DNA of 64,000 nt from Opitutus sp. GAS368 (GTDB lineage Bacteria > Verrucomicrobiota > Verrucomicrobiia > Opitutales > Opitutaceae). This document shows, in pieces, positions 40,239 through 60,601 of the stretch. The position numbers were made by a program, and so were the translations under genes. Location: positions 2,202,291 through 2,266,290 of the forward strand of contig NZ_LT629735.1 in NCBI RefSeq assembly GCF_900104925.1, written 5' to 3'. How positions within the stretch are numbered: position 1 is the stretch's first letter; each line of letters starts with the position of its first letter. The notes below the pieces were generated by a model, which did not search any database, was not told the origin of the DNA, and saw only the letters and a program-made list of their open reading frames with translations.

Positions 40239-40282
40239 CAGGGTTTAACCTTATCTCTATCCCGCGAAGACAAGCGCATACT
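40239..40282 (+). promoter_or_regulatory. Candidate activator-dependent promoter, site A
   Basis: CAGGGTTTAACCTTATCT (40239-40256), then 20 bp, then the -10-like CATACT (40277-40282). There is no -35 box. It is nearly identical to site H in front of the NarL-type kinase gene. The reading frame begins 87 bp downstream. Confidence 0.55.
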
Positions 40283-40369: not shown

Positions 40370-41779
40370 ATGACCGCACAAAATCCAAGCCACCGGTTTG
40401 CCGGAGTGAAAACACGTCTCCCTCGCCTGGCTCCCGTCGTTTTCGCTGCTGTGATGCTCATCCCGCTCACATGCCGGGCGGTGCCCAGCTTTGCCCGGCA
40501 ATTGAACATGCAGTGCATTGCCTGCCATACGGAGTATCCGCTCCTGAACGAGTTTGGCCGCCAGTTCAAACTCGGCGGCTATACCTTGGGCACGGGACAG
40601 GACGCCATCCCGCTCGCACTCATGTTGCAGCCGTCCTTCACGCACACGCAAGCGCCCCAAGCCGGAGGGGCGGCGCCGGGGTTCAATGACAACAACAATC
40701 CCGCGCTGACCCAGGCGAGCATCTTCTACGCCGGCCGGTTGTTCGGCCCGTATGCCGGGAAACTCTTTGGCGAAAGCGAGGCGGAACTCGCCAACAAGTT
40801 CGGGCTTTTCCTGCAGGTCACCTATGATGGCGTCGGCAAGGCCTGGACGTGGGACAACACGGAGTTCCGCTATGCCGACACCAAGACTATCGGCGGGAAA
40901 AACGTGACCTACGGCCTCTACCTCAACAACAACCCGACGTTGCAAGATCCGTGGAACAGCACGCCCGCCTGGGGCTACCCGTTCACCAGCTCGCACCTCG
41001 CCCCGACGCCGGCCGGGAGTCCCCTCATCGCCAACAGTGTTTCCCAACAGGTGGCCGGAGCGGGCGCATACGCGATGATCGCCAATTCGCTCTATGTCGA
41101 CCTCGCCGGTTACCGCACGCTCGATCAGCACACGCAAAGGGCCCTCGGGATCAATCCCGACGGTGAGACCCAAATCACCGGGTTGGCTCCGTATTGGCGG
41201 ATCGCCGTGGTCCGGCCGGTCGGACCCGGCATCTGGGAAGCGGGCGCTTTCGGCCTCGCGGCGGACACCTACCCCGGACGCGACCAGAGCGCCGGCAAGG
41301 ACCGGATCGTGGATATCGGCCTCGATTCGCAGTATCAGGAATCCTTCAAGCAATCCGACGTGACGGTCATGTTTTCCTGGATCAACGAGCACCAGGACTG
41401 GAAGGCGAGCCAGACACTCGGCAATACCAGCAACGCGACAGACCGGCTGTGGACGCTCAAGGCCACCGTCAGCTATCTCTTCGACAAGACCTATGGGTTG
41501 ACCGGCCAGTATTTCATGAAGGACGGCGATGCCGATCCCCTGCTTTATTCCGGCAGTGCGAACGGTTCCCCCCGGAGCGACGGCTTTGTGCTGCAGGCCA
41601 ATTACCTGCCGTTCAACAAGGACGGCGGACCGAAGTTCTGGTCCAGGAGCAATGTCAAGTTGTCCGTCCAATACACCTTCTACAATCGCTTTGACGGGGC
41701 GAAAGCCAATTACGACGGCGCGGGCGCGAACGCCCGGGACAACAACACGCTCTACCTCGAGGCGTGGATCGTGTTCTAG
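40370..41779 (+). CDS. Outer-membrane-like protein with one CxxCH haem motif
   Basis: This 469-residue exported protein has a signal peptide near residues 15-37 and one haem-attachment site, CIACHTEYPLLNEFG, with Cys49, Cys52 and His53. The remainder is rich in alternating aromatic and polar strands and ends in WIVF, a terminal aromatic as in beta-barrel outer-membrane proteins. It resembles the uncharacterised cytochrome-containing porins of metal-reducing and denitrifying bacteria. Electron transfer across the outer membrane is possible but unproven. It is followed by azurin after 42 bp and shares promoter site A. Confidence 0.75.
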   Translation: MTAQNPSHRFAGVKTRLPRLAPVVFAAVMLIPLTCRAVPSFARQLNMQCIACHTEYPLLNEFGRQFKLGGYTLGTGQDAIPLALMLQPSFTHTQAPQAGGAAPGFNDNNNPALTQASIFYAGRLFGPYAGKLFGESEAELANKFGLFLQVTYDGVGKAWTWDNTEFRYADTKTIGGKNVTYGLYLNNNPTLQDPWNSTPAWGYPFTSSHLAPTPAGSPLIANSVSQQVAGAGAYAMIANSLYVDLAGYRTLDQHTQRALGINPDGETQITGLAPYWRIAVVRPVGPGIWEAGAFGLAADTYPGRDQSAGKDRIVDIGLDSQYQESFKQSDVTVMFSWINEHQDWKASQTLGNTSNATDRLWTLKATVSYLFDKTYGLTGQYFMKDGDADPLLYSGSANGSPRSDGFVLQANYLPFNKDGGPKFWSRSNVKLSVQYTFYNRFDGAKANYDGAGANARDNNTLYLEAWIVF

Positions 41780-43254: not shown

Positions 43255-43749
43255 TCAGACGGCCTCCGCTTCTTCGGTTTCAAGCTGGGCCCGGAGCATC
43301 CAGGCGGTTTTTTCATGCTGCTGCATCAGGCCGGTGAGGAAGTCGGTCGTGCCGGTATCCTGGAAGCGCGCGGTGCAGGCGGCGCTGTCCGTGCGAAGCT
43401 GGGTGACCATCTCCTCGTGCAGGGTCAGCAGTTCGGCGAGCATGCGCCCGGCGGACAGGCCGATGCCCGGGTCGGCCGAGGAACGCGCCGCCTTGGCCAG
43501 GTCCGCCCAGTTGCCGCGGGCGCCCATGCCGATGGCGCGGGCGCGCTCGGCGACGTCATCGATCCATTGCGAGACCTGGCCGGATTGCGCCTCAAACTGC
43601 AGGTGCAGGCTGTGGAACTCCGGGCCGGTGACATTCCAATGATAGTCCCGGGTGGTGGTGTAGAGCATGTATTCATCGGCCAGGAGCAGGTTGAGCATCT
43701 GGCCGACTTCGAGACGGGCTGCGTCGTCCAATCCGTTGTTGATTTTCAT
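43255..43749 (-). CDS. dps: Dps/ferritin-like DNA-protection protein
   Basis: This 164-residue ferritin-fold protein should form 12-mers that oxidise and store iron and shield DNA. The ferroxidase residues are present: DYHWNVTGPEFHSLHLQFEA and WIDDVAERARAIG. The C-terminal helix is AELLTLHEEMVTQLRTD followed by MQQHEKTAWMLRAQL. The start at 43749 (MKINNGLDDAARLEVGQML) yields the usual length; longer in-frame sequence upstream is Pro/Arg-rich and rejected. A truncated relative lies at 53254-53535. Confidence 0.92.
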   Translation of the reverse strand: MKINNGLDDAARLEVGQMLNLLLADEYMLYTTTRDYHWNVTGPEFHSLHLQFEAQSGQVSQWIDDVAERARAIGMGARGNWADLAKAARSSADPGIGLSAGRMLAELLTLHEEMVTQLRTDSAACTARFQDTGTTDFLTGLMQQHEKTAWMLRAQLETEEAEAV

Positions 43750-43774
43750 GAGAGGGGAAAGGGGCCGGCCGGGG

Positions 43775-43960
43775 TCAGGATTGCGCGTGACGCGGCATGT
43801 GCTGGCGGGCGTGGGCGGTGGTGTCGGCGGCGTGCGTGGGGACCACGGGACGGCGGGCGACGGCGGTTTGTCCGGGGGACAGCGCGGGCCGCGGGAGTTG
43901 CTGCGCCGGGCGGACCAGGGCTTTCCGGCCGACGGGGCGGCTGATGTTTTTGGCGGACAT
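43775..43960 (-). CDS. Small basic Pro/Arg-rich hypothetical protein
   Basis: This 61-residue ORF on the dps strand ends 25 bp upstream of the dps start. It is rich in Arg, Pro, Ala and His (MSAKNISRPVGRKALVRPAQ) with no recognisable domain. It could be a short real gene or chance in GC-rich DNA. The only support is orientation and spacing. Confidence 0.3.
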   Translation of the reverse strand: MSAKNISRPVGRKALVRPAQQLPRPALSPGQTAVARRPVVPTHAADTTAHARQHMPRHAQS

Positions 43961-44001
43961 GGGTGGCGTGGGAGTTCGGACCGGAGCGGGAAGGCGGGGA
44001 G

Positions 44002-44037
44002 GAAAAAAGAAGCGCGGCCGCCCAAGGGCCGCCGCGC
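44002..44037 (-). terminator. Intrinsic terminator after the BON-domain gene
   Basis: Minus strand GCGCGGCGGCCC-TTGGG-CGGCCGCGC hairpin followed by TTCTTTTTT. Confidence 0.8.
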
Positions 44038-44062: not shown

Positions 44063-44794
44063 TCAGCTTTTCACGGTCATCTTGTTCGTGACGGAATTCA
44101 CGCCGCGGACATCCTTGGCGAGCTTCGTGACGAGCGACCGCTCGGCGTCCGTGGCGGCTTCGCCGGTGACGAGTACCACGCCGTCGGAAGTGACGACCTT
44201 GGTCTTGACGGCGCTGGTGGCCTTGTGGGTGAGCAGGGCATACTTGACCTGGCTGGTGATGGAGGCGTCGTCGATCTTCTCGCCCAAGGTGGGCTTGTCG
44301 GTCACGACGAGGTCATTCTGCACGGTCTTCACGCCGTCGATCTCGGAGGCGTAGATGCCGGTCAGTTCCTTCTGGGCGACATTGTCGGCGGTGCCGGTCA
44401 GCATGACGTGGGCATCCTTGACCTCGACCTTGGTGCTGGTGGCGCTGACGTTGCCCTTGACGAGCAGGCGGCTGCGGATCTTGAAGGCCATCCAGGCGTC
44501 GGACTTCTCGGGATAGGCCGGCTCGACCTTGATGTCGTTCTTCACGCTGATCACGCCGGGGAGGTTTTCCACGGTGTCGGCGGCGAGATCGCGGTCGTCC
44601 TTGTCCTGAACGGTGCCGGTGAGGGTGACGATGCCGTCATCGGCCTTAACCTTCACATGATCCTCGAGGACGGTGCGGTAGTTGTAGGAGGCCTTGGCGG
44701 CCTCCTCAATCTTGCGATCGGTGGAGGAGGAAGCGAGCAGCGCGAGCGGGCTGGCGACGAGAACAAACAGGACGGACAGGTTTTTGGTTTTCAT
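44063..44794 (-). CDS. Periplasmic protein with three BON domains (OsmY-like)
   Basis: This 243-residue protein has a signal peptide (about 1-21) and three consecutive BON domains at about 25-92, 98-165 and 172-241. Each has the G-I/V-V-T/L-LTG strand (GIVTLTGTVQD, HVMLTGTADN, GVVLVTGEAAT). OsmY-type proteins are osmotically or stationary-phase induced and are thought to bind phospholipids or chaperone envelope proteins. It has its own promoter element (site B) and its own terminator, so it is a monocistronic unit. Confidence 0.88.
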   Translation of the reverse strand: MKTKNLSVLFVLVASPLALLASSSTDRKIEEAAKASYNYRTVLEDHVKVKADDGIVTLTGTVQDKDDRDLAADTVENLPGVISVKNDIKVEPAYPEKSDAWMAFKIRSRLLVKGNVSATSTKVEVKDAHVMLTGTADNVAQKELTGIYASEIDGVKTVQNDLVVTDKPTLGEKIDDASITSQVKYALLTHKATSAVKTKVVTSDGVVLVTGEAATDAERSLVTKLAKDVRGVNSVTNKMTVKS

Positions 44795-44807: not shown

Positions 44808-44851
44808 ACAATACGCGCTCCCGGTCTCCGCGCCTATGGGGCGTTGCCCTA
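44808..44851 (-). promoter_or_regulatory. Candidate activator-dependent promoter, site B
   Basis: Minus strand TAGGGCAACGCCCCATAG (44851-44834), 20 bp, then TATTGT (44813-44808) as -10. The element holds a GGGC-AAC-GCCC dyad. The BON-gene ATG is 13 bp downstream of the -10. Confidence 0.6.
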
Positions 44852-44924: not shown

Positions 44925-47882
44925 CTAGAAGGTGATGGCGACGCCGAGGCGCCACTCATCGAGCACGCGGGTGGTGCCGCCGCTCTGGGTGTCAACGTCG
45001 GCGTAGAGGAGGGCGTTGGGCCCGAGCACCACATCAAGGCCGGCGGTGTAGAGCGCCGTGTCGCGCTGGTTGCGGCGGGTCTTGACCGAGTAGTTGATGT
45101 TGCCGAACGAGGCGCCGATGCGGCGGGAGTCGTCGTAGAACTCGTGGAGCCAGGCGGCCCGGACGTGCGGCTGGAACAGGCCAAGGGTCATGCGAGCCTC
45201 GGCTCCGAGCTGGGAGCGCAGGGAGAAGGCGGCCTGGTGGCCGACCGTGGCATCGAATTCCCCGGCGCCTTGCTCGGTGAAGCGATTGGCGGACCATCGG
45301 GTCATGAGCAGGCCGCCGAACGGCGACACGGTCACCGCGCCGGCCTTCAGGTGCTCCCCGGCGGTGATGCCGGTGGTCCATTGGTGGCCGCTGGTCGAAG
45401 CGGTGGCGAGAGCGGCGGTGCCCGGGAAAACGATCGGACGGGTGGCGCTGTAGTCATTGAAGCTGTAGGCCAGCATCGCGTCCACGAACATCGGGCCGTC
45501 AACCCAGCCGGCGCGCACGCCGAGGGTCTTTTCGTTCACGGTGGTCTCGCTGCCAACCGAGCCGAGGCCGGAAGTGGTCTTGCCGAAGGCAAAGTAAGCG
45601 CCGACCGTGGTGCCGGGACGGACGAGGTGATTGCCCCCGATCAGGCCGGAGTCGCTGGTGTAGAGGCTCGAACCGACATCGAGATCGGCCCGGGAACGAC
45701 CATGGGCCCGGTTGGCTTCGAAGTAGTATTCATCATGCCCGGCTACCGCCCGGTCCTCGCGCAGGAGGCGATCGGCGAGGGAAGTGGCCCGGGCGAAGGC
45801 GAAGTCGGACCAGACCTGGTAGCCTTGGGGCGACATGGCGTTGAGCGAGCCCGGGAAAAAGATGGCGAACGGCAGCGCATCGAGCGCCGCGGTCTGCGTC
45901 GGGTTGCCCTGCGCGGCGGCGCCGACGGCCGCCTGGTTGGGCGTCTGCGCAAAACCCGCGAAGGGCAGCTGGGTGAACGTGATCGTCGCGCTGGTCGGGG
46001 CGTAGCTGACGGTGACGCCGGTGGCGGCGCTGGAGGCGATGAAGCCGGCGAGGGAACCGAAGGTGCCGCTCACGCCGCCCGCGGCGGTGAGGAACGTGAA
46101 GGACTGGCCGAGCGGGTTGTAGCCGCCGAGGATGTCGACCTGCAACGTGCCGGCGAGCGCGGCGGTGCCCGTGATGATGAGATGGTCAAACGACGAGACC
46201 GAGGCGATCTCGACGAGCAGCTTGCCGGTGGAGCCCTGCACATAGTTGCCGGTCACGTTGATCGTGCCGGGTGAGTTGCCGGGGCTGACCGTGCCGTTGT
46301 TGGTGAGCAGGCCGATGACGTTGCCGTTGCCGCCGAGGAGTGCGCCGGCGGACACGGTGGTCGCGCCGAGGCCGTTGTTGAAGAAGAACGAGCCGGCCTG
46401 GACATCAACCGGGGAAGTGGTCGCGGTGGTCAGGGTGAACGCGGCCGTGCCGGTTTTCTGGACCTTGCCGCCGCCGGAGATCAAACCGCCGAAAGTGCCG
46501 TCGGCCGCCTGGTTGAAGACCAGCGTGCCCACGGGGAGGATGGCGACGCCGCCGTTCACGGGCAGGGTCGAGGTGCTGGCGATCAGGGTGCCGGCGCTCA
46601 CGTTGGTGCCGCCCGTGTAGGTGTTGGCGCCGGTGAAGGTGGTCGTGCCGGCGCCCTGCTTGTTGACGGTGCCGTTGCCGGAGATCACGCCGCCGAACGT
46701 GCCGCTCGCCGGCTGGTTGAAGGTCAGGATGCTGGTGTTGAGCGCGATGGATCCGTTCACCGGCAGGGTCTGGCTGGTGGCGATCAGCACACCGCTGTTC
46801 ACAATGGTGCCGCCCGTGTAGGTGTTGCCCGTGCCGGTCATGGTCACGGTGGCCGTGTTGATCGTGAGGGAGGCCGGGGCCGACCCGTTCGAGGAATTGC
46901 CGTCAAGGGTCAGCGTCGAGGTGGGGTACTGGGTGCCCGGCACCAGGATCACACCGGAGGAACCCGGGACGTAGAGGCCGGTCGAGCTGAGAATGACATT
47001 GCCGGTGAAAACGGGGGGGGGCGGAATGACCGGGGGAACGATCGGCGGAACCGGGGGCGGGATCGGCACCAGCACGCCGCCGACATACATCAGGCCGCCA
47101 TTAAAATCGCCGCCACCGGGACCGCCCGTGGTGTTGAATCCGCCGGGGACTTTGCCGGCGAAGGTGACGGCGGCTCCGGCCAGGGCGCGAACGCCGCCCG
47201 AGGCGAGGGTGTTGGTGATGCCGGTGAAGGAGATGCTGGTGCCGGCCATGTAATTGCCGAGGACCGTATTGTTGTCGCCGATGGTGATGGCGGTCGCGGC
47301 GTTCCAGAAGAGGCCGTCGTCCTTGCCGCCATTCGTGCCCGCATTGATGATAGTGACCGTCGAATTCGCCGCGGTGGTGAGACTGAGGGAAAAATCAAAA
47401 ACCCACGCCACGCCGTTCTGAAAGTTGGCGTCGAGGACGATCGCCCCGGTCTGGTTCGTGGCCGAGGTGGAAAAATAAACACCCGGCCGGAGCGCGGCGA
47501 GGGTTCCGATATCCAGATTGCTCAGGTCGTTGGCCGGGATGTGCGGCATGGCGAACAGGGCGTTCCGGGCCGTGATGAGATCCGCCCCCGCCTGACCGGT
47601 GGCGCCGCCCGTGGGGATGATCCCGGCGGGAGAGCCACTGACGGTGAAGCCTGAAACCACCGCCGGCGGAAAGCCGGTGATGTTGGTGGTGGCGGACGAG
47701 GAAAGACCGACGTTGCCGTTGACAATCGGATTGGGGCCGGGACCACCGACGGTGATGGCCGTGCCACCGAGCAGCGCATAGTTGGCGGCGGTAAGCAAAA
47801 CTTGGGCTGACCCCGGGGCCGGGGCGAACAACATCGCAGCGAGCGCCACAACGGACAAAGAAATCAGGTTTTTGATTTTCAT
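44925..47882 (-). CDS. Ice-binding (DUF3494) domain fused to PATR repeats and autotransporter barrel
   Basis: This 985-residue surface protein has a signal peptide (about 1-26). Residues 28-270 form a DUF3494 ice-binding/adhesin domain (YALLGGTAITVGGPGPNPIV, NGNVGLSSSA, GVYFSTSATNQTGAIVLD). A Pro-rich hinge (VPIPPPVPPIVPP) follows. Autotransporter-associated repeats come next (NTYTGGTNVSAGTLI, NNGTVSPGNSPGTINVTGNY). The final 250 residues are an autotransporter beta-domain ending in WRLGVAITF, a terminal Phe. An ice-binding passenger carried by a type V secretion barrel is unusual. Promoter site C lies just upstream and a terminator just downstream. Confidence 0.88.
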   Translation of the reverse strand: MKIKNLISLSVVALAAMLFAPAPGSAQVLLTAANYALLGGTAITVGGPGPNPIVNGNVGLSSSATTNITGFPPAVVSGFTVSGSPAGIIPTGGATGQAGADLITARNALFAMPHIPANDLSNLDIGTLAALRPGVYFSTSATNQTGAIVLDANFQNGVAWVFDFSLSLTTAANSTVTIINAGTNGGKDDGLFWNAATAITIGDNNTVLGNYMAGTSISFTGITNTLASGGVRALAGAAVTFAGKVPGGFNTTGGPGGGDFNGGLMYVGGVLVPIPPPVPPIVPPVIPPPPVFTGNVILSSTGLYVPGSSGVILVPGTQYPTSTLTLDGNSSNGSAPASLTINTATVTMTGTGNTYTGGTIVNSGVLIATSQTLPVNGSIALNTSILTFNQPASGTFGGVISGNGTVNKQGAGTTTFTGANTYTGGTNVSAGTLIASTSTLPVNGGVAILPVGTLVFNQAADGTFGGLISGGGKVQKTGTAAFTLTTATTSPVDVQAGSFFFNNGLGATTVSAGALLGGNGNVIGLLTNNGTVSPGNSPGTINVTGNYVQGSTGKLLVEIASVSSFDHLIITGTAALAGTLQVDILGGYNPLGQSFTFLTAAGGVSGTFGSLAGFIASSAATGVTVSYAPTSATITFTQLPFAGFAQTPNQAAVGAAAQGNPTQTAALDALPFAIFFPGSLNAMSPQGYQVWSDFAFARATSLADRLLREDRAVAGHDEYYFEANRAHGRSRADLDVGSSLYTSDSGLIGGNHLVRPGTTVGAYFAFGKTTSGLGSVGSETTVNEKTLGVRAGWVDGPMFVDAMLAYSFNDYSATRPIVFPGTAALATASTSGHQWTTGITAGEHLKAGAVTVSPFGGLLMTRWSANRFTEQGAGEFDATVGHQAAFSLRSQLGAEARMTLGLFQPHVRAAWLHEFYDDSRRIGASFGNINYSVKTRRNQRDTALYTAGLDVVLGPNALLYADVDTQSGGTTRVLDEWRLGVAITF

Positions 47883-50830: not shown

Positions 50831-50874
50831 GCGGGTTAAACCCCATTCCGCCGCCCGGGACCGTCGTCTATGCT
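50831..50874 (+). promoter_or_regulatory. Candidate activator-dependent promoter, site E
   Basis: GCGGGTTAAACCCCATTC (50831-50848), 20 bp, then TATGCT (50869-50874). The PRC-barrel gene starts 80 bp downstream. Confidence 0.5.
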
Positions 50875-50954: not shown

Positions 50955-52013
50955 ATGAAAACTCATATCAAACTTTTCGCCGGCACGATCATCACGGCCA
51001 GCCTTGCCCTTTCGTCCGCGGCCGAGGCCGTGCACACGCCCACGCCCCTTGGCGCGGAGAAGACGCCCACCAACTTCGTCCACGTCGAGATCAAGAATCT
51101 CCAGGGCGAGACCTTGGGCCGCATCAAGGATCTCGGCATCGATCTGATCAACGGCCGCATTGTCGAGGTGCTGGTCGAGTCGGACAGCTCACTCGAGGTC
51201 GGCGGCAAGGTCGTCGCGGTGCCGCCGCTCGCCCTGATGCGTGATCCCTCAAACAAGATTTACCGGCTCAACGCCAGCCGCGAGGTGTTCAAGACCGCCG
51301 CCGCCATCGATCTTGCGTCGTGGACCGACGCCGGCCGGAGCGACCGGGTCGCCGCGGCCTATTATCTTTTCGGCCAGGAGCCGTATTTTCTCGAGGAAGG
51401 GGCCACGGCCAGCAGGAAGGACGTCCGGCCCAAGGTATCGCTGGGTTATGTGGAGCGCTGCAACAAGCTGGTCGGCATGCCGGTGGGCAACTACCCGGGC
51501 GAGCAATTTGGGAAAGTGTGGTCGATGACCCTGGATATTCCCAAGGGCCGGATCCTCAGTGTCATCGTGCTGGCGCCGGGCAATTTCGAGACCAAGAGTG
51601 TGATTCCCGCCATGGCCCTCGGCTTCAACACCGCGCGGAACGCGCTCCTGCTCGACGACACCAAGCAGGAGTATGCGGACGAGCCGCGCTATATCTACAC
51701 CAAGGCCGCCTTCGGCAACGTGGCCACCTCGCAGGAGGAAGCCTTCAAGGGTCCGCACACCTTGGTGGCGCTCGAGCAGGGGGACAGCTACCCCGACGTG
51801 GACCGCACGCTCCTCATCCAGCAGAACATCCGCGTGGCCAGGATTTACGGCCGCAATGTGCAGGTGGGCACGATCAACGGCCGCGTCACGCTCCGGGGCT
51901 GGGTGCGCACCGCCGCCGACCAGCAGCGCATCGGCGAGATCGCCATCGCCGCCTCCCGCTTGGAACTGGTGGACAACCAGATCACCGTGGGCCGGCCCGT
52001 CGCCGGCCTTTAA
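50955..52013 (+). CDS. Exported PRC-barrel and BON-domain protein
   Basis: This 352-residue protein has a signal peptide (about 1-25). There are two PRC-barrel-like domains at about 40-110 (VEIKNLQGETLGRIKDLGID) and 165-235 (KLVGMPVGNYPGEQFGKVWS). A C-terminal BON domain spans about 285-345 (NGRVTLRGWVRTAADQQR). PRC barrels bind RNA or proteins in the cytoplasm, but exported versions with BON domains are found in envelope-stress loci. Function here unknown. Confidence 0.82.
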   Translation: MKTHIKLFAGTIITASLALSSAAEAVHTPTPLGAEKTPTNFVHVEIKNLQGETLGRIKDLGIDLINGRIVEVLVESDSSLEVGGKVVAVPPLALMRDPSNKIYRLNASREVFKTAAAIDLASWTDAGRSDRVAAAYYLFGQEPYFLEEGATASRKDVRPKVSLGYVERCNKLVGMPVGNYPGEQFGKVWSMTLDIPKGRILSVIVLAPGNFETKSVIPAMALGFNTARNALLLDDTKQEYADEPRYIYTKAAFGNVATSQEEAFKGPHTLVALEQGDSYPDVDRTLLIQQNIRVARIYGRNVQVGTINGRVTLRGWVRTAADQQRIGEIAIAASRLELVDNQITVGRPVAGL

Positions 52014-52389: not shown

Positions 52390-52433
52390 GAGGTCATCAC
52401 CCCATAGGGTCCGGCGGCCTGATCGGTTAGTAT
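52390..52433 (+). promoter_or_regulatory. Candidate activator-dependent promoter, site F
   Basis: GAGGTCATCACCCCATAG (52390-52407), 20 bp, then TAGTAT (52428-52433). An overlapping TATAAG at 52431-52436 is an alternative -10. Confidence 0.5.
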
Positions 52434-52496: not shown

Positions 52497-53288
52497 ATGA
52501 AACCGCTTCGTTTGATTTTACCGGCCGTCATGGCCCTCGGTGTCTGGCTGACCCAGGCCGGCGCCCAGGTGGCCATAAGTCTCGGCTCCGCGTCGACCTT
52601 CGGCGTGCTGGGCGCCTCCACCGTCACCAACACCGGCGCCACCACCGTCAATGGCGATTTTGGCGTGAGCCCGGGCATCGCGTATACGGGATTCCCGCCC
52701 GGCGTGGTGGTGCACGGAGCGATCCATGCCGCCGACGCGACGGCCACCCAGGCCCACGCGGATGCGATCTCGGCCTTCAACGTGCTCGGCGGCGAAACCT
52801 TCACCCAGGATCTGACGGGATTGGATTTGGGGTCCCGCACCCTCACGACCGGCGTTTATTTCTATACCGCCGCCGCTCAACTCACGGGCATCCTTACCCT
52901 CGACGCCCTGAATGATCCCAATGCACGCTTCGATTTCCGGATTGGTAGTACGCTGGATACCGCCAGCAGCAGCCAGATCCTGCTGATCAACGGGGCCAGC
53001 GCGAGTAACGTTTACTGGCAGATCGGCACCTCGGCCACTTTCCTGACTTCGTCGGACCTGGTGGGGAGCTTCCTGGCGGGGGCCTCGATCACCGCCGGCA
53101 CGGGGACCATGGTGAATGGGCGGCTGCTGGCCTTGGGCGCGGCCGTGACCCTGGACACCAACTCGATCACGGTCCCGACCGCGATTCCGGAACCGGCCGC
53201 CACGGCGGCACTGGCGGCGGGCCTGATGGGCCTGGTCGTCGGGGTCCGCCGGATCAGGCGGATGCGGGACTCGCGAGCTGCGTCCTGA
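52497..53288 (+). CDS. Ice-binding (DUF3494) family protein with PEP-CTERM signal
   Basis: This 263-residue secreted protein has a signal peptide (about 1-24) and a DUF3494 beta-solenoid (FGVLGASTVTNTGATTVNGD, TGVYFYTAAAQLTGILTLDA, GSFLAGASITAGTGTMVNGR). The C-terminus is a PEP-CTERM sorting signal: IPEP, a hydrophobic helix, and the basic RRIRRMR. Exosortase would process it for surface display; no exosortase is in this window. It is the second DUF3494 gene here, and both carry the same promoter element. The 3' end overlaps the convergent Dps-like gene by 35 bp. Confidence 0.9.
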   Translation: MKPLRLILPAVMALGVWLTQAGAQVAISLGSASTFGVLGASTVTNTGATTVNGDFGVSPGIAYTGFPPGVVVHGAIHAADATATQAHADAISAFNVLGGETFTQDLTGLDLGSRTLTTGVYFYTAAAQLTGILTLDALNDPNARFDFRIGSTLDTASSSQILLINGASASNVYWQIGTSATFLTSSDLVGSFLAGASITAGTGTMVNGRLLALGAAVTLDTNSITVPTAIPEPAATAALAAGLMGLVVGVRRIRRMRDSRAAS

Positions 53289-53535
53289 GCAGCACGGCGG
53301 CCTTCTCATGCTGCTCGATCATTTTCGTCAGAAAACCGGCGGTGCCGGTTTCGCTCAGGCGCTCGAGGTGCAGTTGCTCGATCATCTCCTCGTTCATGGC
53401 CAGCAGTTCCGCGAGCAGGCGGCTGGAGCACCGGCGGGCCGGTCTGGCCGGGAGGGCGTGGGGGAAATTGGGAAGTTCCGCCGCCGCGGTGGCGCTGATC
53501 GTGCCGTTGCCGGAGGCGGGCAGGGGTAGGTCCAT
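53254..53535 (-). CDS. Truncated Dps-like protein (C-terminal helices only)
   Basis: A 93-residue ORF whose last 55 residues (RLLAELLAMNEEMIEQL, TAGFLTKMIEQHEKAAVLLR) closely match the C-terminal helices of the Dps at 43255-43749. The N-terminal ferroxidase half is missing and replaced by about 38 Pro/Ala/Ser-rich residues (MDLPLPASGNGTISATAAAE). Codon bias is intact. The ATG at 53535 fits promoter site G, whose -10 lies 12 bp upstream. It may be a degenerate paralogue or a shortened functional partner. Its end overlaps the ice-binding gene. Confidence 0.6.
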   Translation of the reverse strand: MDLPLPASGNGTISATAAAELPNFPHALPARPARRCSSRLLAELLAMNEEMIEQLHLERLSETGTAGFLTKMIEQHEKAAVLLRTQLASPASA

Positions 53536-53547
53536 GAGCTGCACCCG

Positions 53548-53591
53548 AGGGTAGCGGGCACGGGCCATATCCGCTATGGGGTGTTGCCCTC
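53548..53591 (-). promoter_or_regulatory. Candidate activator-dependent promoter, site G
   Basis: Minus strand GAGGGCAACACCCCATAG (53591-53574), 20 bp, then TACCCT (53553-53548). The element is almost identical to site B. It lies 17 bp after the stop of the NarL-type regulator gene. Confidence 0.5.
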
Positions 53592-53608
53592 CCGCGGCGC
53601 CGCCCGCC

Positions 53609-54295
53609 TTAGACAATCGTCAGCTGCACACTGCTCTCGATGATGCCCTGGGCGATGGCGTAGCGGGTCAGGCCGGCGGTCTCGTGGATGTTGAGCTTGT
53701 CCATGAGGTGCTGCCGGTGCTTCTCGACCGTCTTGATGCTGATGCCCAGTTCCGCCGCGACCTGCTTGTTGGCCGAGCCCTCGGCGACGAGCTGCAGCAC
53801 CTCGGACTCGCGGGAGGTCAGGCGGCTGGCGTTGGCCTTGAGCAGGCCCTCCCGGTCCCGCGGTTTGCTGGCGGTGGCGCCCAGGCGCCGGGCGATGGCC
53901 GGACTGAAATAGGTGCGGCCCTTGGCGACCTCGTGGATTGCCTTGGTCAGGATTTCCGCGGACGACTGCTTCTCCAGGAAGCCCGCGACCCCGGCCTCGT
54001 TCATCCGCTCCACATAGACGTCGTCGCTGTGGGCGGAAAGGATGACCACCTTGGCGGCGGGATTGGCCGCCAGGATCTGGCGCGTCGCCTCCAGGCCGTT
54101 GAGCACCGGCATGGCGATGTCCATCAGGATGACATCGGGCCGCAGGGTCCGCGCCAGCTCCACGGCCTCGCGGCCGGTGCGGGCCTCCCCGACGAGCTTG
54201 AAGCTGCCGTCGGCGTTGAGCAGCGCACACAGGCCCTGGCGCACGACGGCGTGATCCTCGGCGAGCAGGACGGTGATGGGTCGGGGGGTGGTCAT
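53609..54295 (-). CDS. NarL/FixJ-family response regulator (receiver + LuxR HTH)
   Basis: This 228-residue DNA-binding regulator has a receiver with acidic pocket (VLLAEDHAVVRQGL), phospho-accepting Asp in VILMDIAMPVLNG, switch Ser in VILSAHSD and Lys in FLEKQSS. The LuxR-type HTH is LTSRESEVLQLVAEGSANKQ plus ISIKTVEKHRQHLMDKL. Its ATG overlaps the kinase stop by four bases, so the pair is translationally coupled. The site G and H elements flank this operon. It is the prime candidate to bind the recurring 18-bp promoter element, although that is an inference. Confidence 0.93.
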   Translation of the reverse strand: MTTPRPITVLLAEDHAVVRQGLCALLNADGSFKLVGEARTGREAVELARTLRPDVILMDIAMPVLNGLEATRQILAANPAAKVVILSAHSDDVYVERMNEAGVAGFLEKQSSAEILTKAIHEVAKGRTYFSPAIARRLGATASKPRDREGLLKANASRLTSRESEVLQLVAEGSANKQVAAELGISIKTVEKHRQHLMDKLNIHETAGLTRYAIAQGIIESSVQLTIV

Positions 54296-55527
54296 TTTTT
54301 TGTTTTCTCCGGGGTGAAGGGGATTTCGGCACACACGGTGGTGCCGTGGCCGGGCGCGGACTTGATGGTCAGGCGGCCGCCGACCATCTCGATCCGCTCC
54401 CGCATGCCGACCAGGCCCAGCCTCTTGTTGTTCTTGGGCAAAAGAGTCTGCCCGACCATAAAGGATTTCCCATTGTCGGCGATCTCCATCCGGACCGCCG
54501 CGGGCATCCGGCTGATGCTGATCGTCACGGTGCTGGCGCGCGCATGGCGGGCGACATTGTTGAGCGCCTCCTGGGCCACGCGGAAAAACACGGTGCGCTC
54601 GGCGCCGCCCAGGGCCTCGACTCCGCGGAAGGCCGTCAGCTGGATCTTCAGTTTTTTCCGCGCCGCCAGGCCCTTGCAGAAGACGTGGAGGGCGGGGATC
54701 AGGCCGAGGTCGTCGAGGACGGCCGGCCGCAGCTCGCGGGCGAAGCGGTGCACGGCGTTCACGGAGTTCGCCACCAGCCGCTGGGTGCGGGCGATTTTTG
54801 CCCTCAGCTTGTGCAGGCCGGCGGAAGTCCCCTTGGTCAGCGCGGCCAGCTCGACATTGATGCCGACCAAGGTCTGGACCACCTCGTCGTGCAGCTCCCG
54901 GCTGATTTCCTTCCGCTCCTCCTCCTGGGCCGAGATGATCTGCCGCGTCAGCAGGCGGAGTTTCTTCTGCATGATCTGGGATTCCCGGAACAGCGCCTGG
55001 TAGTGCTCCCGGCCCTGAAGGATGGTCACCTCGCCGGCCTTGCGCCGGGCGATCTCGCGTTCCAGCCGGCGGTTGCCGCTGGCCAGGGCGGCGGTGTGCC
55101 GGCGCAGTGTCTCGTTGTGCTGCTGCAACTGCCGGTTGGTCTCGCGCGTGGCCTGCTGCGCCTCTTCGAGCGGCAGGAGCGCCTGGGTGAAAAACACGCC
55201 GGCCCGCTTGAGCACGCCGTTGCGCGCGTGCGCAAAGTCGTAGGACGAGGCGAGGGCGACGACCGCCTGCTCGTGCATGATGGCCAGGTCCAGGGTCACC
55301 AGTCCGCCGGCCAGGGCGGAGCGGCCCAGGCTTTGGGCGCGGTTGGCGTGGTTCGCCGCCTTCCCGCCGAGGTGGGTGCGGAGCGCAGTGAGATAGCGGG
55401 CCGACAGTCGCGTGCGGGCCGTTTTCACCGAGGGGGCGTTTCCTTCCGTCGTCCGAAGTGGATTCGTCAAACAATTCCCTTTCTCCAAGGGTGGCACGGG
55501 CAGTGAATCGTCGAAGCGGCGAAGCAT
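54292..55527 (-). CDS. NarL-system histidine kinase with RsbU-like N-terminal bundle
   Basis: This 411-residue cytosolic kinase has no transmembrane segment. Residues about 40-130 resemble the helical RsbU/RsbRD N-terminal domain (YLTALRTHLGGKAANHANRA). A coiled coil (about 130-205) follows. The HisKA_3 phosphorylation site is ERKEISRELHDEVVQTLVGI, and the HATPase has NNVARHARASTV, IADNGKSF and LGLVGMRERIEM. The absence of a periplasmic sensor suggests a cytoplasmic input, possibly via the RsbU-like part. Promoter site H is only 14 bp upstream, implying autoregulation. Confidence 0.9.
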   Translation of the reverse strand: MLRRFDDSLPVPPLEKGNCLTNPLRTTEGNAPSVKTARTRLSARYLTALRTHLGGKAANHANRAQSLGRSALAGGLVTLDLAIMHEQAVVALASSYDFAHARNGVLKRAGVFFTQALLPLEEAQQATRETNRQLQQHNETLRRHTAALASGNRRLEREIARRKAGEVTILQGREHYQALFRESQIMQKKLRLLTRQIISAQEEERKEISRELHDEVVQTLVGINVELAALTKGTSAGLHKLRAKIARTQRLVANSVNAVHRFARELRPAVLDDLGLIPALHVFCKGLAARKKLKIQLTAFRGVEALGGAERTVFFRVAQEALNNVARHARASTVTISISRMPAAVRMEIADNGKSFMVGQTLLPKNNKRLGLVGMRERIEMVGGRLTIKSAPGHGTTVCAEIPFTPEKTKK

Positions 55528-55540
55528 CCGTCTGGGTCGA

Positions 55541-55584
55541 ATTAAACCCTTATTCCGTCGGAATAGCGATAAGGTAAAACCCTA
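55541..55584 (-). promoter_or_regulatory. Candidate activator-dependent promoter, site H
   Basis: Minus strand TAGGGTTTTACCTTATCG (55584-55567), 20 bp, then TTTAAT (55546-55541). It drives the kinase/regulator operon and closely matches site A. Confidence 0.6.
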
Positions 55585-56894: not shown

Positions 56895-58106
56895 TCAAGC
56901 CGCCAAAGGAGCGTCCGGCGGCAGGGGAATGCGCGCCTTGATTTCCGTGCCGGCGTGGCGACCGGATTTCACCGTGAGGACGCCGCCCTCATAGGCCGCC
57001 CGTTCGCCCATCCCGAGCAGGCCCAGGACGCCTTTTCCCTTCCGCCGGGCCGCATGATGCTTCGTGTCGAAGCCGACACCGTCGTCCTTGACCGTCAGCT
57101 GCACAAAGGCGCCCCGCTGCCGCAGGCTTGCGGTGACGCGCCGGGCGCCGGCGTGCTTCTCCACGTTTTTCAAGGCTTCCTGGAAGATGCGGTAGAGGGC
57201 CAGTTCGGTGCCGGCCGGCGGCCGGACGGCCAGTTCGTCACAGTCCAGCTTGACCAGGACGCCCGTCCGGGTCGCGAACTCCCGGCCGGCGTCGCGCAGG
57301 ACGGCGGCCAGGCCGACATGGTCCAGCACGCTGGGCCGCAGGTTCCGCGAGATGCGCTCCACTTCCTCGGCCGTCCGGCCGAGCATGGCGCGGAGCTTCA
57401 CCGCCTCGCCCTTCGCGGCTCCGTCGTGATTTGAAAGCTTGTCCGCCAGCGCCTGGCTGCTGAAGAGGACGGCGATCAGCAGCTGGGTGATGTTGTCATG
57501 CAGTTCGAGGGCCACGCTCCCGCGTTCGGCTTCCTGCACCTGCACTACCCGCTGGGTCAGGGCCCGCAGCAGTTCCTCGGTCCGCCGGGCTTCCGTCATG
57601 TCCGTCACCACCAAGCCGATGGGGGCGCGGCTGAAGCCGTTCTTCTCCAGGCGGCGGATGGAGATCTGCACCGGCAGGCGCGAGCCGTCGCTGACGCGGA
57701 GCAACACCTGGAGCTTGGAACCGGTCCGGGCTGCCCGTTTCAGGAGCGGCCGGAGCACGGCCCGGTCCTCGGGGGAGAGAAAGCGGCGGAAGGAACCGCC
57801 CATCACCTGCTCCAGCGGGCATTTGACCATGCGGGCGAAGCACTGGTTGGCGTAGAGGATCATCTTGTCCACCGTCAGGGTCACCGCCCCCTCGTTCATG
57901 GACTCGATGAGGACGCGGTAGGCGTGCTCGGCGCCCTGCAGGGTGAACACCTGCGGGCCCTGCTTGCCCGTGACCACCACCGAATCCACCTCGCCGCGGC
58001 GGATGGCGCGGAGCGCTCCCTCCGCTTCCGCCAGACGCAGGCGGAGTCCGGCAAGTTCGCCGGCGCGCGAGGACGGGACGGGACGGGACGGGCGGACGGG
58101 TTTCAC
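56895..58106 (-). CDS. PAS-domain histidine kinase of the kai operon
   Basis: This 403-residue soluble kinase has no transmembrane segment. An N-terminal helix (LRLRLAEAEGALRAIRRGEV) precedes a PAS domain at about 60-170 (AYRVLIESMNEGAVTLTVDK). HisKA_3 is QEAERGSVALELHDNITQLL and HATPase is KNVEKHAGARRV plus DDGVGFDTK and GVLGLLGMGERAA. It starts at GTG with a GAGGAG ribosome site and lies 10 bp after kaiB1. The N-terminus carries a GGGAC tandem repeat in the DNA (58076-58096). Kinases of this layout often follow kaiBC in non-cyanobacteria. Confidence 0.9.
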   Translation of the reverse strand: MKPVRPSRPVPSSRAGELAGLRLRLAEAEGALRAIRRGEVDSVVVTGKQGPQVFTLQGAEHAYRVLIESMNEGAVTLTVDKMILYANQCFARMVKCPLEQVMGGSFRRFLSPEDRAVLRPLLKRAARTGSKLQVLLRVSDGSRLPVQISIRRLEKNGFSRAPIGLVVTDMTEARRTEELLRALTQRVVQVQEAERGSVALELHDNITQLLIAVLFSSQALADKLSNHDGAAKGEAVKLRAMLGRTAEEVERISRNLRPSVLDHVGLAAVLRDAGREFATRTGVLVKLDCDELAVRPPAGTELALYRIFQEALKNVEKHAGARRVTASLRQRGAFVQLTVKDDGVGFDTKHHAARRKGKGVLGLLGMGERAAYEGGVLTVKSGRHAGTEIKARIPLPPDAPLAA

Positions 58107-58116
58107 GGTGCGCTCC

Positions 58117-58452
58117 TCAGATGGCCAGGCTTAACTCGAAGGCCAGGGTGGTGGTGTTGGCCAGATTGCCGATGAACCGGCGCACCGGCAGGGGGAGCTC
58201 CTTGATGAGGGTTGGCGTGGCGACGATCTGGTGGGCGCGGGCCAGGGCGGGTTGCTGGTAGATGTCGATCACCTCCAGGTCGCAAGCGCCGGCCAGCTTC
58301 GATTCGCAGAGCTGGCGGACCCGCAGGACGGCCTGGCGCGACCGGGCCGTGGCCCCGGCCACAAACAGGCGCAGGATGTATTTGCCTTTCGGCGGACGGG
58401 CTAGGGACTTCTCGAGGGTCGGTTTCGCACGGCGGATTTTCTTGTTTTTCAG
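58117..58452 (-). CDS. kaiB: KaiB-like protein 1 (probable CTG start)
   Basis: A KaiB-family thioredoxin-like protein. It shows KYILRLFVAGATARSRQAVL, ACDLEVIDIYQQPALARAHQ, and the conserved IVATPTLIKELPLPVRRFIG. No ATG, GTG or TTG occurs upstream of the GTG at 58362, and starting there would delete the first beta strand. I therefore place the start at CTG 58452 (LKNKKIRRAKPTLEK), 14 bp after the kaiB2 stop with a GGAA-type ribosome site. This gives 111 residues. A sequencing frameshift is an alternative explanation. Confidence 0.75.
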   Translation of the reverse strand: MKNKKIRRAKPTLEKSLARPPKGKYILRLFVAGATARSRQAVLRVRQLCESKLAGACDLEVIDIYQQPALARAHQIVATPTLIKELPLPVRRFIGNLANTTTLAFELSLAI

Positions 58453-58466
58453 GGTAGTCGTTCCGG

Positions 58467-58790
58467 TTAGCCCGTCGCGCGCAGGTCCAGGCCGACGAGC
58501 ACGCGGGCGGTATCGGAAAGGTTGCCGATGATGGTGCGCACCGGGTTCGGCAGCCGGCGCACCACGGTCGGGATGGCGAGGATCTGGTCACCCCTGGCGA
58601 GCTGCGGATGCTTCAGCAGGTCGATCACGGTGATGCGGTAACGGCCCTTGAGATGGGCGTCGCAGATCTTCCGAAGGTTATCGAGCGCCGACATCGACTT
58701 GGGCGTCTCGTCCATCACGTAAAGGCGCAGTTGCCAGTGCCGGGCGGACCGGCGGGGGGAGGCCTTGCGTTTGGCCGGTTTGGTTTTCAA
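58467..58790 (-). CDS. kaiB: KaiB-like protein 2
   Basis: This 107-residue protein has a basic N-terminus, then WQLRLYVMDETPKSMSALDN, YRITVIDLLKHPQLARGDQI and LAIPTVVRRLPNPVRTIIGN, the full KaiB pattern. KaiB switches fold and binds KaiC in cyanobacterial clocks; outside cyanobacteria it mostly acts in stress tolerance. It overlaps the kaiC stop by four bases (ATGA). With the following gene it forms a tandem KaiB pair, and the two differ considerably in sequence. Confidence 0.93.
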   Translation of the reverse strand: MKTKPAKRKASPRRSARHWQLRLYVMDETPKSMSALDNLRKICDAHLKGRYRITVIDLLKHPQLARGDQILAIPTVVRRLPNPVRTIIGNLSDTARVLVGLDLRATG

Positions 58791-60547
58791 AGGTATTTCC
58801 TCCCGTTCCTGCCGTTGCCGCGCGGGCGGGTCGACGCTTTGGCATCCGCCTGGCGGAGGCGGCCTGATTCCGCCCGCTCCGTGGTCAGCATGAGCGTGCT
58901 TGTGCCGACTTGTTCATCAATGCGACGTAATTCGACGGCTTCGGATTCATAGTCGTAGCGCAGCCCGCTGATCTGCCGCTCGATTGCCGCGCGTTTGCGC
59001 TCGATCTCGCGCTTGCGGCGGGCCGCTTCCTGCTGAGCGGTCAGAACGGCGGCCTTTTCCAGGGCGCCCTGCGCCGCCCGGGCCGAGCCGGTCAGCACGC
59101 CGTTGGCGCCGATGTAGGCGTCCACGAGGTCGATGCCCCGGTTGGAAATCAGGAACTCGCGGATCTGGTTCGAGTGCGCCATGCCGCGGGCCTTGAGGAC
59201 ATAGAGCACGCGGTTGCGCTCGCCGTTGCCTTCGGTGTCCTGCAACAGCAGCCAGGAGTCCATGAGCGAGGACATGGCCGCCTCGCTCTGCTGCAGCGCG
59301 TGGCCGCCCTGCGTCAGGCTGGTGAAGAGCGTGGTGACCTGCCCGGCCTTCAGGTAGTCGACCAGCCGCGTCACCATCCCCCGGCATTCAGAATCGGTGC
59401 CCGCGTCCATCAGGCTGGTGATCGGGTCGATGATGACGACCTGGGGTTGAAACGTGGCGATCTCGTTGAACATCGTGGCCAGGTGCATTTCCAGGCCGTA
59501 GAGCGAGGGCCGCGCCGCGTGGAACCGCAGCAGGCCGCGCTTGACCAGCGGATCCAGGCGCAGGCCGATCGAATGCATGTTGCGGATGATCTGGTTGGGC
59601 GACTCCTCGAACGAGAAGAAGAGGGTGCGTTCTCCGCGCCGGCAGGCGGCTTGCGCAAAGTTGGCGGCGACGATGGTCTTGCCCGTGCCGGGCGTGCCCG
59701 TGAGCAGGATGCTGCTGCCGCGGAAAAATCCCCGCCCGCCCAGCATCGCGTCGAGCCGGGGGATGCCGGTGGCGATCCGTTCGCTCGAGATCTTGTGGTT
59801 CAGCCCCACCGATGTGATGGGCAGCACGCTGATGCCCTCGTTGCCGATGAGAAACGGGAATTCGTTGGTGCCGTGCAGCGCACCGCGGTATTTCACGACA
59901 CGCAGGTTCCGCGTGGCGATCTGGTCGGTGACCCTGTGGTCGAGCAGGATGACGCAGTCGGACACGTATTCCTCCAGCCCGTGGCGCGTCAGCGATTCGC
60001 GTCCCCGCTCGGCCGTGATGACGGCGGTCACGCCCTTGTCCTTGAGCCAGCGGAAGAGCCGGCGCAGCTCGGCGCGCAGGATGCCCTCGTTGCGCAGGCC
60101 GGCGAACAGCGCCTCCAGCGTGTCCAGCACGACGCGCTTGGCGCCGATGGAGTCGATCGCGTGATTGAGCCGGACGAACAGGCCCTCCAGGTCGTATTCC
60201 CCGCTTTCATGGACCTCGCCGGGCTCGATGTGGACGTAATCGATCAGGATTTTTTTGCGCCGGACCAGGCCGGCCAGGTCAAACCCGAGCGAGGTGACGT
60301 TGGCCTTCAGCTCGGTCTCCGTCTCCTCGAAAGATATCAGCACGCCCGGCTCGTCGAACTGCACCGCGCCGCGCACCAGGAATTCCGCGGCCAGCAGCGT
60401 CTTGCCGCAGCCCGCTCCGCCGCAGACGAGCGTGGGCCGACCCAGCGGCAATCCGCCGCCGGTGATCTCGTCGAGGCCCTGGATGCCGGTGGGGCACTTG
60501 GGTAAAAGCGCCGCGGAGGCACGGGATTTAGAACCTTTATTTTTCAT
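58787..60547 (-). CDS. kaiC: KaiC-like double RecA ATPase
   Basis: This 586-residue clock-type ATPase has two RecA domains. CI has Walker A GGAGCGKT and catalytic glutamates in ISFEETETE. CII has GTPGTGKT and FSFEESPNQ. The positions that correspond to the cyanobacterial Ser431/Thr432 phosphosites appear as Ser426-Ser427 (EAAMSSLMDSW), so one threonine has become serine. The C-terminal 90 residues form an Arg/Glu-rich coiled coil (AARRKREIERKRAAIERQ), longer than in Synechococcus. No kaiA is present, as is usual outside cyanobacteria. First gene of the kaiC-kaiB-kaiB-kinase operon. Confidence 0.94.
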   Translation of the reverse strand: MKNKGSKSRASAALLPKCPTGIQGLDEITGGGLPLGRPTLVCGGAGCGKTLLAAEFLVRGAVQFDEPGVLISFEETETELKANVTSLGFDLAGLVRRKKILIDYVHIEPGEVHESGEYDLEGLFVRLNHAIDSIGAKRVVLDTLEALFAGLRNEGILRAELRRLFRWLKDKGVTAVITAERGRESLTRHGLEEYVSDCVILLDHRVTDQIATRNLRVVKYRGALHGTNEFPFLIGNEGISVLPITSVGLNHKISSERIATGIPRLDAMLGGRGFFRGSSILLTGTPGTGKTIVAANFAQAACRRGERTLFFSFEESPNQIIRNMHSIGLRLDPLVKRGLLRFHAARPSLYGLEMHLATMFNEIATFQPQVVIIDPITSLMDAGTDSECRGMVTRLVDYLKAGQVTTLFTSLTQGGHALQQSEAAMSSLMDSWLLLQDTEGNGERNRVLYVLKARGMAHSNQIREFLISNRGIDLVDAYIGANGVLTGSARAAQGALEKAAVLTAQQEAARRKREIERKRAAIERQISGLRYDYESEAVELRRIDEQVGTSTLMLTTERAESGRLRQADAKASTRPRGNGRNGRKYL

Positions 60548-60601
60548 TCGCTGACATCCTTGCACGAAGGCCGGTGAAACAAATCACCATCGGGCGGAAA
60601 G

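Follow-up and report, generated by a model that had tools for sequence, protein, structure and literature searches.

The HK1-RR1 operon of Opitutus sp. GAS368 and a composite dyad promoter element recurring across Verrucomicrobiota

The HK1-RR1 operon and the input domain of HK1

The window, a stretch of 64,000 nucleotides from Opitutus sp. GAS368 (whose genome is a single contig of 4,150,783 bases), carries on its minus strand a histidine kinase gene, HK1 (54292-55527), and the gene of a NarL/FixJ-type response regulator, RR1 (53609-54295), which overlap through ATGA. HK1 has HisKA_3 and HATPase_c domains (46.1 and 45.5 bits) and RR1 has a receiver (PF00072, 90.5 bits) and a GerE/LuxR helix-turn-helix domain (PF00196, 68.7 bits), all over the curated Pfam cut-offs. 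The closest solved structures to RR1 are VraR and NarL, and its closest relatives among named records belong to Lacunisphaera and other Opitutaceae or Verrucomicrobia. Upstream of HK1, with two opposite-strand genes in between, lies a kai cluster (56895-60565). The original prediction described a two-component operon with copies of a promoter element on either side; the operon, a site before the kinase (site H) and a site after the regulator (site G) were all found.

HK1 consists of an N-terminal helical bundle, a coiled coil, HisKA_3 and HATPase_c. Its best 19-residue hydropathy is only 1.4, which bears out the claimed absence of a membrane segment; HK1-RR1 is a cytoplasmic two-component system. 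The N terminus had also been called RsbU-like. One relative (L207) is just over the Pfam cut-off for RsbU_N (25.6 bits versus 25.5; its neighbour reaches 23.9 and two others are unlisted) and the predicted fold is compatible, but the match in the window protein is weak (E=0.09, precisely 0.091). When a model of the bundle (pLDDT 89.6) was ranked against known structures, KaiA C-terminal domains took ranks 1-8 (Z 9.0-10.3) and RsbU scored Z 7.2-7.6, all below about 13, the level under which matches of helical bundles call for caution and can be unrelated. Foldseek with the same model gave no match at E<=0.001, and the bundle profile found one match among PDB sequences, at chance level (E=0.96). 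As modelled, the HK1 bundle appears to resemble those of KaiA and RsbU, with RsbU_N weakly favoured by sequence. A second HK1-like match ahead of HK1 is seen in L207 (4237-4941), L210, L031, L039, L043 and L052; the one in L207 comprises RsbU_N and HisKA_3 with no HATPase_c match, like a kinase partner devoid of the catalytic domain.

The -10 of site H was reported to lie 14 bp from the HK1 ATG. There are indeed 13 nt between its TTTAAT and the ATG at 55527, but this ATG is probably not the start, because the first in-frame ATG of seven relatives with the same H site lies 29-107 nt after the -10 (51, 29, 88, 107, 82, 74 and 92 nt), and we rejected it. A TTG at 55470, 70 nt past the -10 and preceded by a purine-rich stretch, is the likelier HK1 start.

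A composite promoter element before stress-type and signalling genes

The element is a composite promoter in which a dyad, TAGGGTnnnACCCCA, is followed after 23 nt by a -10 of the form TANNNT. The consensus of 155 unique sites, picked for having a -10 at 23 nt, is RGTAGGGTTACACCCCATAGC, with G preferred just upstream of the -10. Between the centre of the dyad and the -10 are 31 nt, so that the centre falls at about -43 and the dyad overlaps the place of a -35 box; the usual spacing of -35 and -10 boxes is 16-19 nt. The earlier description of a dyad-type element at promoters lacking a -35 box agrees with this arrangement, as an activator-type dyad occupies the -35 place. The TRGGGT half-site resembles GerE and NreC half-sites, and the centre near -43 resembles the -42.5 of LuxR. 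A literature search returned no description of the element, its target set or this regulon, and a search with strings of the motif found a single paper, on HetR.

Six window sites score from 34.7 to 15.2 with a matrix from which the sites of the window had been kept out, and the same matrix finds nothing above 6 in 20 Markov-generated windows. Because the next scores in the window fall to 11.8 and 9.0, we retain six sites rather than the eight (A-H) that had been claimed. All six are intergenic, combine a dyad with a -10 and are aimed at the next gene; in four, TANNNT lies exactly 23 nt past the dyad, while site H and the site at 40240 have TTTAAT and CATACT, respectively, at the same distance. 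Site H (55541-55583, minus strand; dyad AGGGTTTTACCTTA at 55583-55570, -10 at 55546-55541) is the predicted HK1-RR1 promoter, and site G (53548-53590, minus strand; dyad AGGGCAACACCCCA at 53590-53577, -10 TACCCT at 53553-53548) is the predicted promoter of a gene for a 93-aa protein (53254-53535, minus strand). On the plus strand, AGGGTTTAACCTTA with CATACT (40240-40282) precedes a gene for a 469-aa protein with a CxxCH motif (CIACH) and no Pfam or NCBIfam match (40370-41779), CGGGTTAAACCCCA with TATGCT (50832-50874), the weakest of the six and recovered only through a looser scan of the window, precedes a PRC-barrel and BON protein gene (50955-52013), and AGGTCATCACCCCA with TAGTAT (52391-52433) precedes the gene of an ice-binding-like protein (PF11999; 52497-53288). 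The top score belongs to AGGGCAACGCCCCA with TATTGT (44808-44850, minus strand), the target of which encodes a triple BON-domain protein (44063-44794, minus strand).

Site G was thought to drive a Dps-like gene. The site does precede a gene, but the 93-aa product has no ferritin-like domain match (none in Pfam to E=1 or in NCBIfam to E=0.01), and the Dps identity was rejected; a weak 33-residue match in the PDB, falling in the last helix of a Dps-type protein (E=0.27), suggests at most a Dps-like C-terminal helix. The clear Dps/ferritin-like gene of the window, although scoring below the NCBIfam Dps cut-off, is found directly behind the BON gene (43255-44025, minus strand). The BON and Dps-like genes are adjoined by the gene of a 985-aa autotransporter (44925-47882) that has an ice-binding-like N-terminal part and an autotransporter beta-domain. 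Elsewhere in the window, 62848-63765 matches the N-terminal domain of FkbO/Hyg5-like chorismatases.

Since the consensus sites were chosen by their -10, the composite form was tested by counting offsets in stretches for which only the dyad had been the criterion. In the phylum stretches TANNNT lies at 23 nt in 60 of 81 dyads, other offsets averaging 0.65 and the runner-up (offset 24) reaching 8; in the family stretches the figures are 28 of 51 and 0.42, and the runner-up is offset 0 (count 10), the element's own TAG. With CANNNT admitted beside TANNNT, 68 of the 81 phylum dyads and 39 of the 51 family dyads have a hexamer at 23 nt. The strict motif yields 56 sites in 17 of 194 phylum genomes, and the reversed-pattern control yields none in the 194. 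Looser scans are what could make the sites appear as chance or low-complexity artefacts of GC-rich DNA: in the host genome a one-mismatch scan gave 47 matches (the first 30 of which were checked for a -10) versus 50 with the reversed control, which is background, and a looser family pattern has reversed-control matches in 24 of 100 genomes. Weak single matches therefore mean little. Chance as the origin of the composite form is nevertheless refuted by the fixed 23-nt offset together with the empty strict and Markov controls, and the recurrence before like genes also speaks against it, so that we give this reading practically no weight. The composite element is far from chance and recurs across Verrucomicrobiota before stress-type and signalling genes, including HK1.

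In relatives, the targets judged by eye from translations include BON, PRC-barrel, CsbD-like, ice-binding-like, small membrane, Dps-like and Hsp70-like proteins; the signalling genes among them code for stand-alone receivers, ECF-type sigma factors and PAS kinases, and in L144 Pfam identified a PAS hybrid kinase. A sub-type of the element, AGGGTTTTACCYTATCGCTA, usually with TTTAAT or a close variant of it 23 nt on, stands before HK1, CheB/CheR-type and KaiC genes and a PAS protein gene. When at most one mismatch is allowed, 10 of 100 family genomes contain this sub-type, six of them with RR1; the reversed control is found in one. An HK1-type dyad is also found in L352 (G066), before a shortened RR1-like gene that keeps the receiver and seemingly lacks the DNA-binding domain, with no TTTAAT at 23 nt. 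In L315 (G040) and L320 (G074), two genomes in which RR1 was not found, a dyad with TANNNT at 24 nt precedes the same hydrolase-like gene (by eye).

ECF-type sigma genes (by eye) lie behind copies of the element in L029, L160 and L170, where they may form a second regulatory tier. Their presence among the apparent targets would also suit a promoter of an alternative sigma factor, with the dyad acting as an extended -35 box. Against this stand the nearly palindromic form of the dyad, the inner end of which lies 23 nt from a housekeeping-type TANNNT, and the symmetric conservation of GGGT and ACCC, which points to a dimeric activator; we consider a dedicated sigma factor very improbable.

RR1 and the reading of the element

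The co-occurrence of regulator and motif, put forward earlier as a check, is strong across the phylum but weak within the family. Among the 194 phylum genomes the strict motif occurs in 17, RR1 (called at E<=1e-60) in 30 and both in 14 (Fisher p=1e-10); RR1 is thus present in 14 of the 17 motif-bearing genomes versus 16 of the 177 others, the 14 spanning 11 families in counts that are uncorrected for kinship. Eight of these 14 genomes have sites no more than 20 kb from RR1, 15 of 51 sites in all. In 100 family genomes, scanned with the looser family pattern, motif, RR1 and both number 42, 30 and 18 (p=0.026), with RR1 in 18 of the 42 motif-bearing genomes and in 12 of the other 58. These co-occurrence tables, like that of proximity in the host genome, were compiled by hand from search results.

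A composite site lies within 1.5 kb of RR1 at 25 of 51 orthologue loci (each genome giving one, the window's locus among them), versus none of 45 NarL paralogue loci, a control unmatched by genome because its loci come from genomes where RR1 was not found; reversed sequences gave none. The paralogue loci exclude L181 (G094), a partial orthologue with a nearby site, and loci from named records overlap with the genome set (L005 with G023, L032 with G026). Orthologues whose neighbours lack the motif, which would speak against the original prediction, are found as well: 26 of the 51 loci have no site within 1.5 kb, against the 25 that have one.

In the host genome, sites cluster round the NarL regulator: five of nine listed composite sites lie within 10 kb of RR1, and none of the nine comes that close to any of the 25 further GerE genes. 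The list of nine omits L081, a strict dyad with TAGGGT at 22 nt, and L104, which has one mismatch and CATCAT at 23 nt. Also omitted are L101 and L098, each with one mismatch and, by eye, located within coding frames; L098 sits 3.7 kb from the GerE gene at 2053662. A second regulator of the host (3228314), the DNA-binding domain of which is 75% identical, was considered as another site-flanked regulator and rejected, its locus (L291) being without a site.

The proposed site before the kinase gains support from relatives, as 11 of 26 kinase genes, that of the window among them, have kept a dyad no more than 300 nt before the conserved start (dyads were counted irrespective of a -10). The kinase set held 27 rows (26 and the window), with L011 left out since its N terminus is not alignable. 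Among kinases at least 63% identical, the dyad is present in 8 of 11 (L003, L004, L034, L015, L009, L033, L026 and the window), L176, L057 and L056 having none within 300 nt of the conserved start; in the more distant kinases with a dyad (L028, L170 and L175) the -10 is weak or absent.

Motif-bearing genomes without the regulator, the other observation that would count against the original prediction, exist as well. Set against the 14 of 17 motif-bearing phylum genomes that have RR1, six Opitutaceae genomes of 96-100% completeness have sites and no detected RR1 orthologue, their best RR1 match being 38-42% identical: G001, G050, G059 and G085 hold sites with a 23-nt -10 and regulon-type targets, and G030 and G074 one such site each. 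Base preferences in RR1-free genomes are similar (24 sites, chosen for a -10 at 22-24 nt, 23 of which have a spacer of 23). The phylum exceptions (G178, G204 and G212) are 92-96% complete, and missing contigs may explain some of them. That sites persist in species lacking RR1 implies that a second regulator reads the element, or that RR1 is not its reader.

Instead of activating the element, RR1 may itself be one of its targets. According to this alternative, the true reader would be another regulator, such as the Opitutaceae paralogue RR2 (about 38-42% identical to RR1, and 55-59% in the DNA-binding domain) or a further factor, and HK1-RR1 would only be among the targets. Besides the sites and regulon-type targets of the near-complete RR1-free genomes, this is favoured by G001, where RR2 is the sole NarL-type domain found at E<=1e-8, and by the placing of the element before several kinds of signalling genes, which makes being a target common. 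However, none of the 45 paralogue loci, those of RR2 included, has a site within 1.5 kb, and RR2 also occurs in G040 and G098, where the examined candidates have no -10 at 23 nt (L315 of G040 has TAGCAT at 24 nt; one strict G040 match is outside the set). In addition, no NarL-type domain similar to that of RR1 was found at E<=1e-8 in G178 and G204, and the phylum-wide co-occurrence figure covers RR1 alone, not RR2. That another regulator is the true reader seems unlikely to us.

On these sequence comparisons, RR1 is the likely activator of the element promoters, and probably not the only one. We infer direct binding of the dyad by RR1, and with it the 'master switch' role that was originally assigned to it. 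Taken as a whole, the explanation that we favour, and hold to be reasonably probable, is that HK1-RR1 activates the composite-element regulon and its own operon, with another reader in RR1-free species. The helical bundle of HK1 would act as the sensory input, HK1 would pass a phosphoryl group to RR1, as family knowledge suggests, and a dimer of phosphorylated RR1 would bind the dyad, covering the -35 region with its centre near -43. From there it would recruit the RNA polymerase that reads the -10, in a class II-like activation, and site H would let RR1 amplify its own operon by positive feedback. At least one other regulator would read the same element in RR1-free species.

The kai genes and comparison with known systems

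The kai cluster near the operon is encoded on the minus strand and comprises KaiC (58787-60565), KaiB (58467-58790), a second KaiB (58117-58362) and a PAS and HisKA_3 histidine kinase (56895-58106). KaiC has two ATPase domains, two Walker A motifs and a C-terminal extension; it passes the NCBIfam cut-off for PRK09302 (728.7 bits, cut-off 408) and misses that for TIGR02655 (356.2 bits, cut-off 546). The two KaiB match PF07689 with 83.1 and 71.6 bits (cut-off 27). By eye, a Ser-Ser pair of KaiC lies at about the place of the known phosphosites, and a scripted pattern for these phosphosites gave no match in the window KaiC. A weak dyad before kaiC (60618) departs at position 5 and has no -10 at 23 nt, and it was discarded as a site.

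Elsewhere, kaiC lies downstream of RR1 on the same strand in L004, L013, L019, L026 and L032, with about 50-200 nt between the matches, in L392, from another family, the order is HK1-kaiC-kaiB-PAS kinase-RR1, and in G023 kaiC is preceded by a separate site of the HK1 sub-type. Only a minority of RR1 loci have kai genes close by (10 of 80 loci; 3 of 40 stretches, each at most 20 kb long); within 1.5 kb they occur at 3 of 51 RR1 orthologues versus 0 of 67 paralogue loci, a small difference, and none was found in 72 motif stretches. In species with an adjacent kai cluster, KaiC may, speculatively, contact the HK1 bundle. HK1 would then be a KaiA-type kinase that docks on KaiC by its bundle and relays the state of KaiBC to RR1 and so to the stress regulon, a proposal that we consider doubtful. 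Were it true, Verrucomicrobiota would have a clock or hourglass output pathway that works through a KaiA-type rather than a KaiB-type kinase, and in species without kai genes the same HK1 bundle would work with a different partner. SasA docks on KaiC with a KaiB-like domain.

HK1-RR1 is like NarX-NarL and VraSR in pairing a HisKA_3 kinase with a receiver-GerE regulator and in having a dyad in the -35 place, and differs from them in that HK1 is soluble, with a putatively KaiA/RsbU-like input bundle. With the general stress response of Bacillus (RsbU/sigmaB) it shares stress-type targets and perhaps an RsbU-like input domain. The Bacillus sigmaB response works by partner switching and a sigma factor, whereas the window uses a two-component regulator and a dyad promoter. 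According to PMC4794148, Rhodopseudomonas palustris has kaiC followed by kaiB and a PAS histidine kinase, and a KaiC with a long C-terminal region; the window shares this gene order and the C-terminal extension, but has two kaiB, and close to its cluster lie a further kinase, the bundle of which may be of KaiA/RsbU type, and a NarL regulator that has a promoter element of its own. The KaiA-type bundle fold is known in KaiA, KaiA3 and RsbU, and KaiA3 of Synechocystis, a NarL-type receiver fused to a KaiA-like domain, ties such a bundle to NarL-type signalling parts (both according to PMC11372060), as the window would if the HK1 bundle is of this type; the HK1 bundle, in contrast, is fused to a histidine kinase and not to a receiver.

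Little regulatory work was found for the phylum, in which the element makes promoters of a stress-type regulon recognisable, outlines a few of its targets and singles out a candidate activator. It also suggests a connection, open to testing, that would join Kai proteins outside cyanobacteria to stress genes and to a sensor kinase of KaiA/RsbU-like make.
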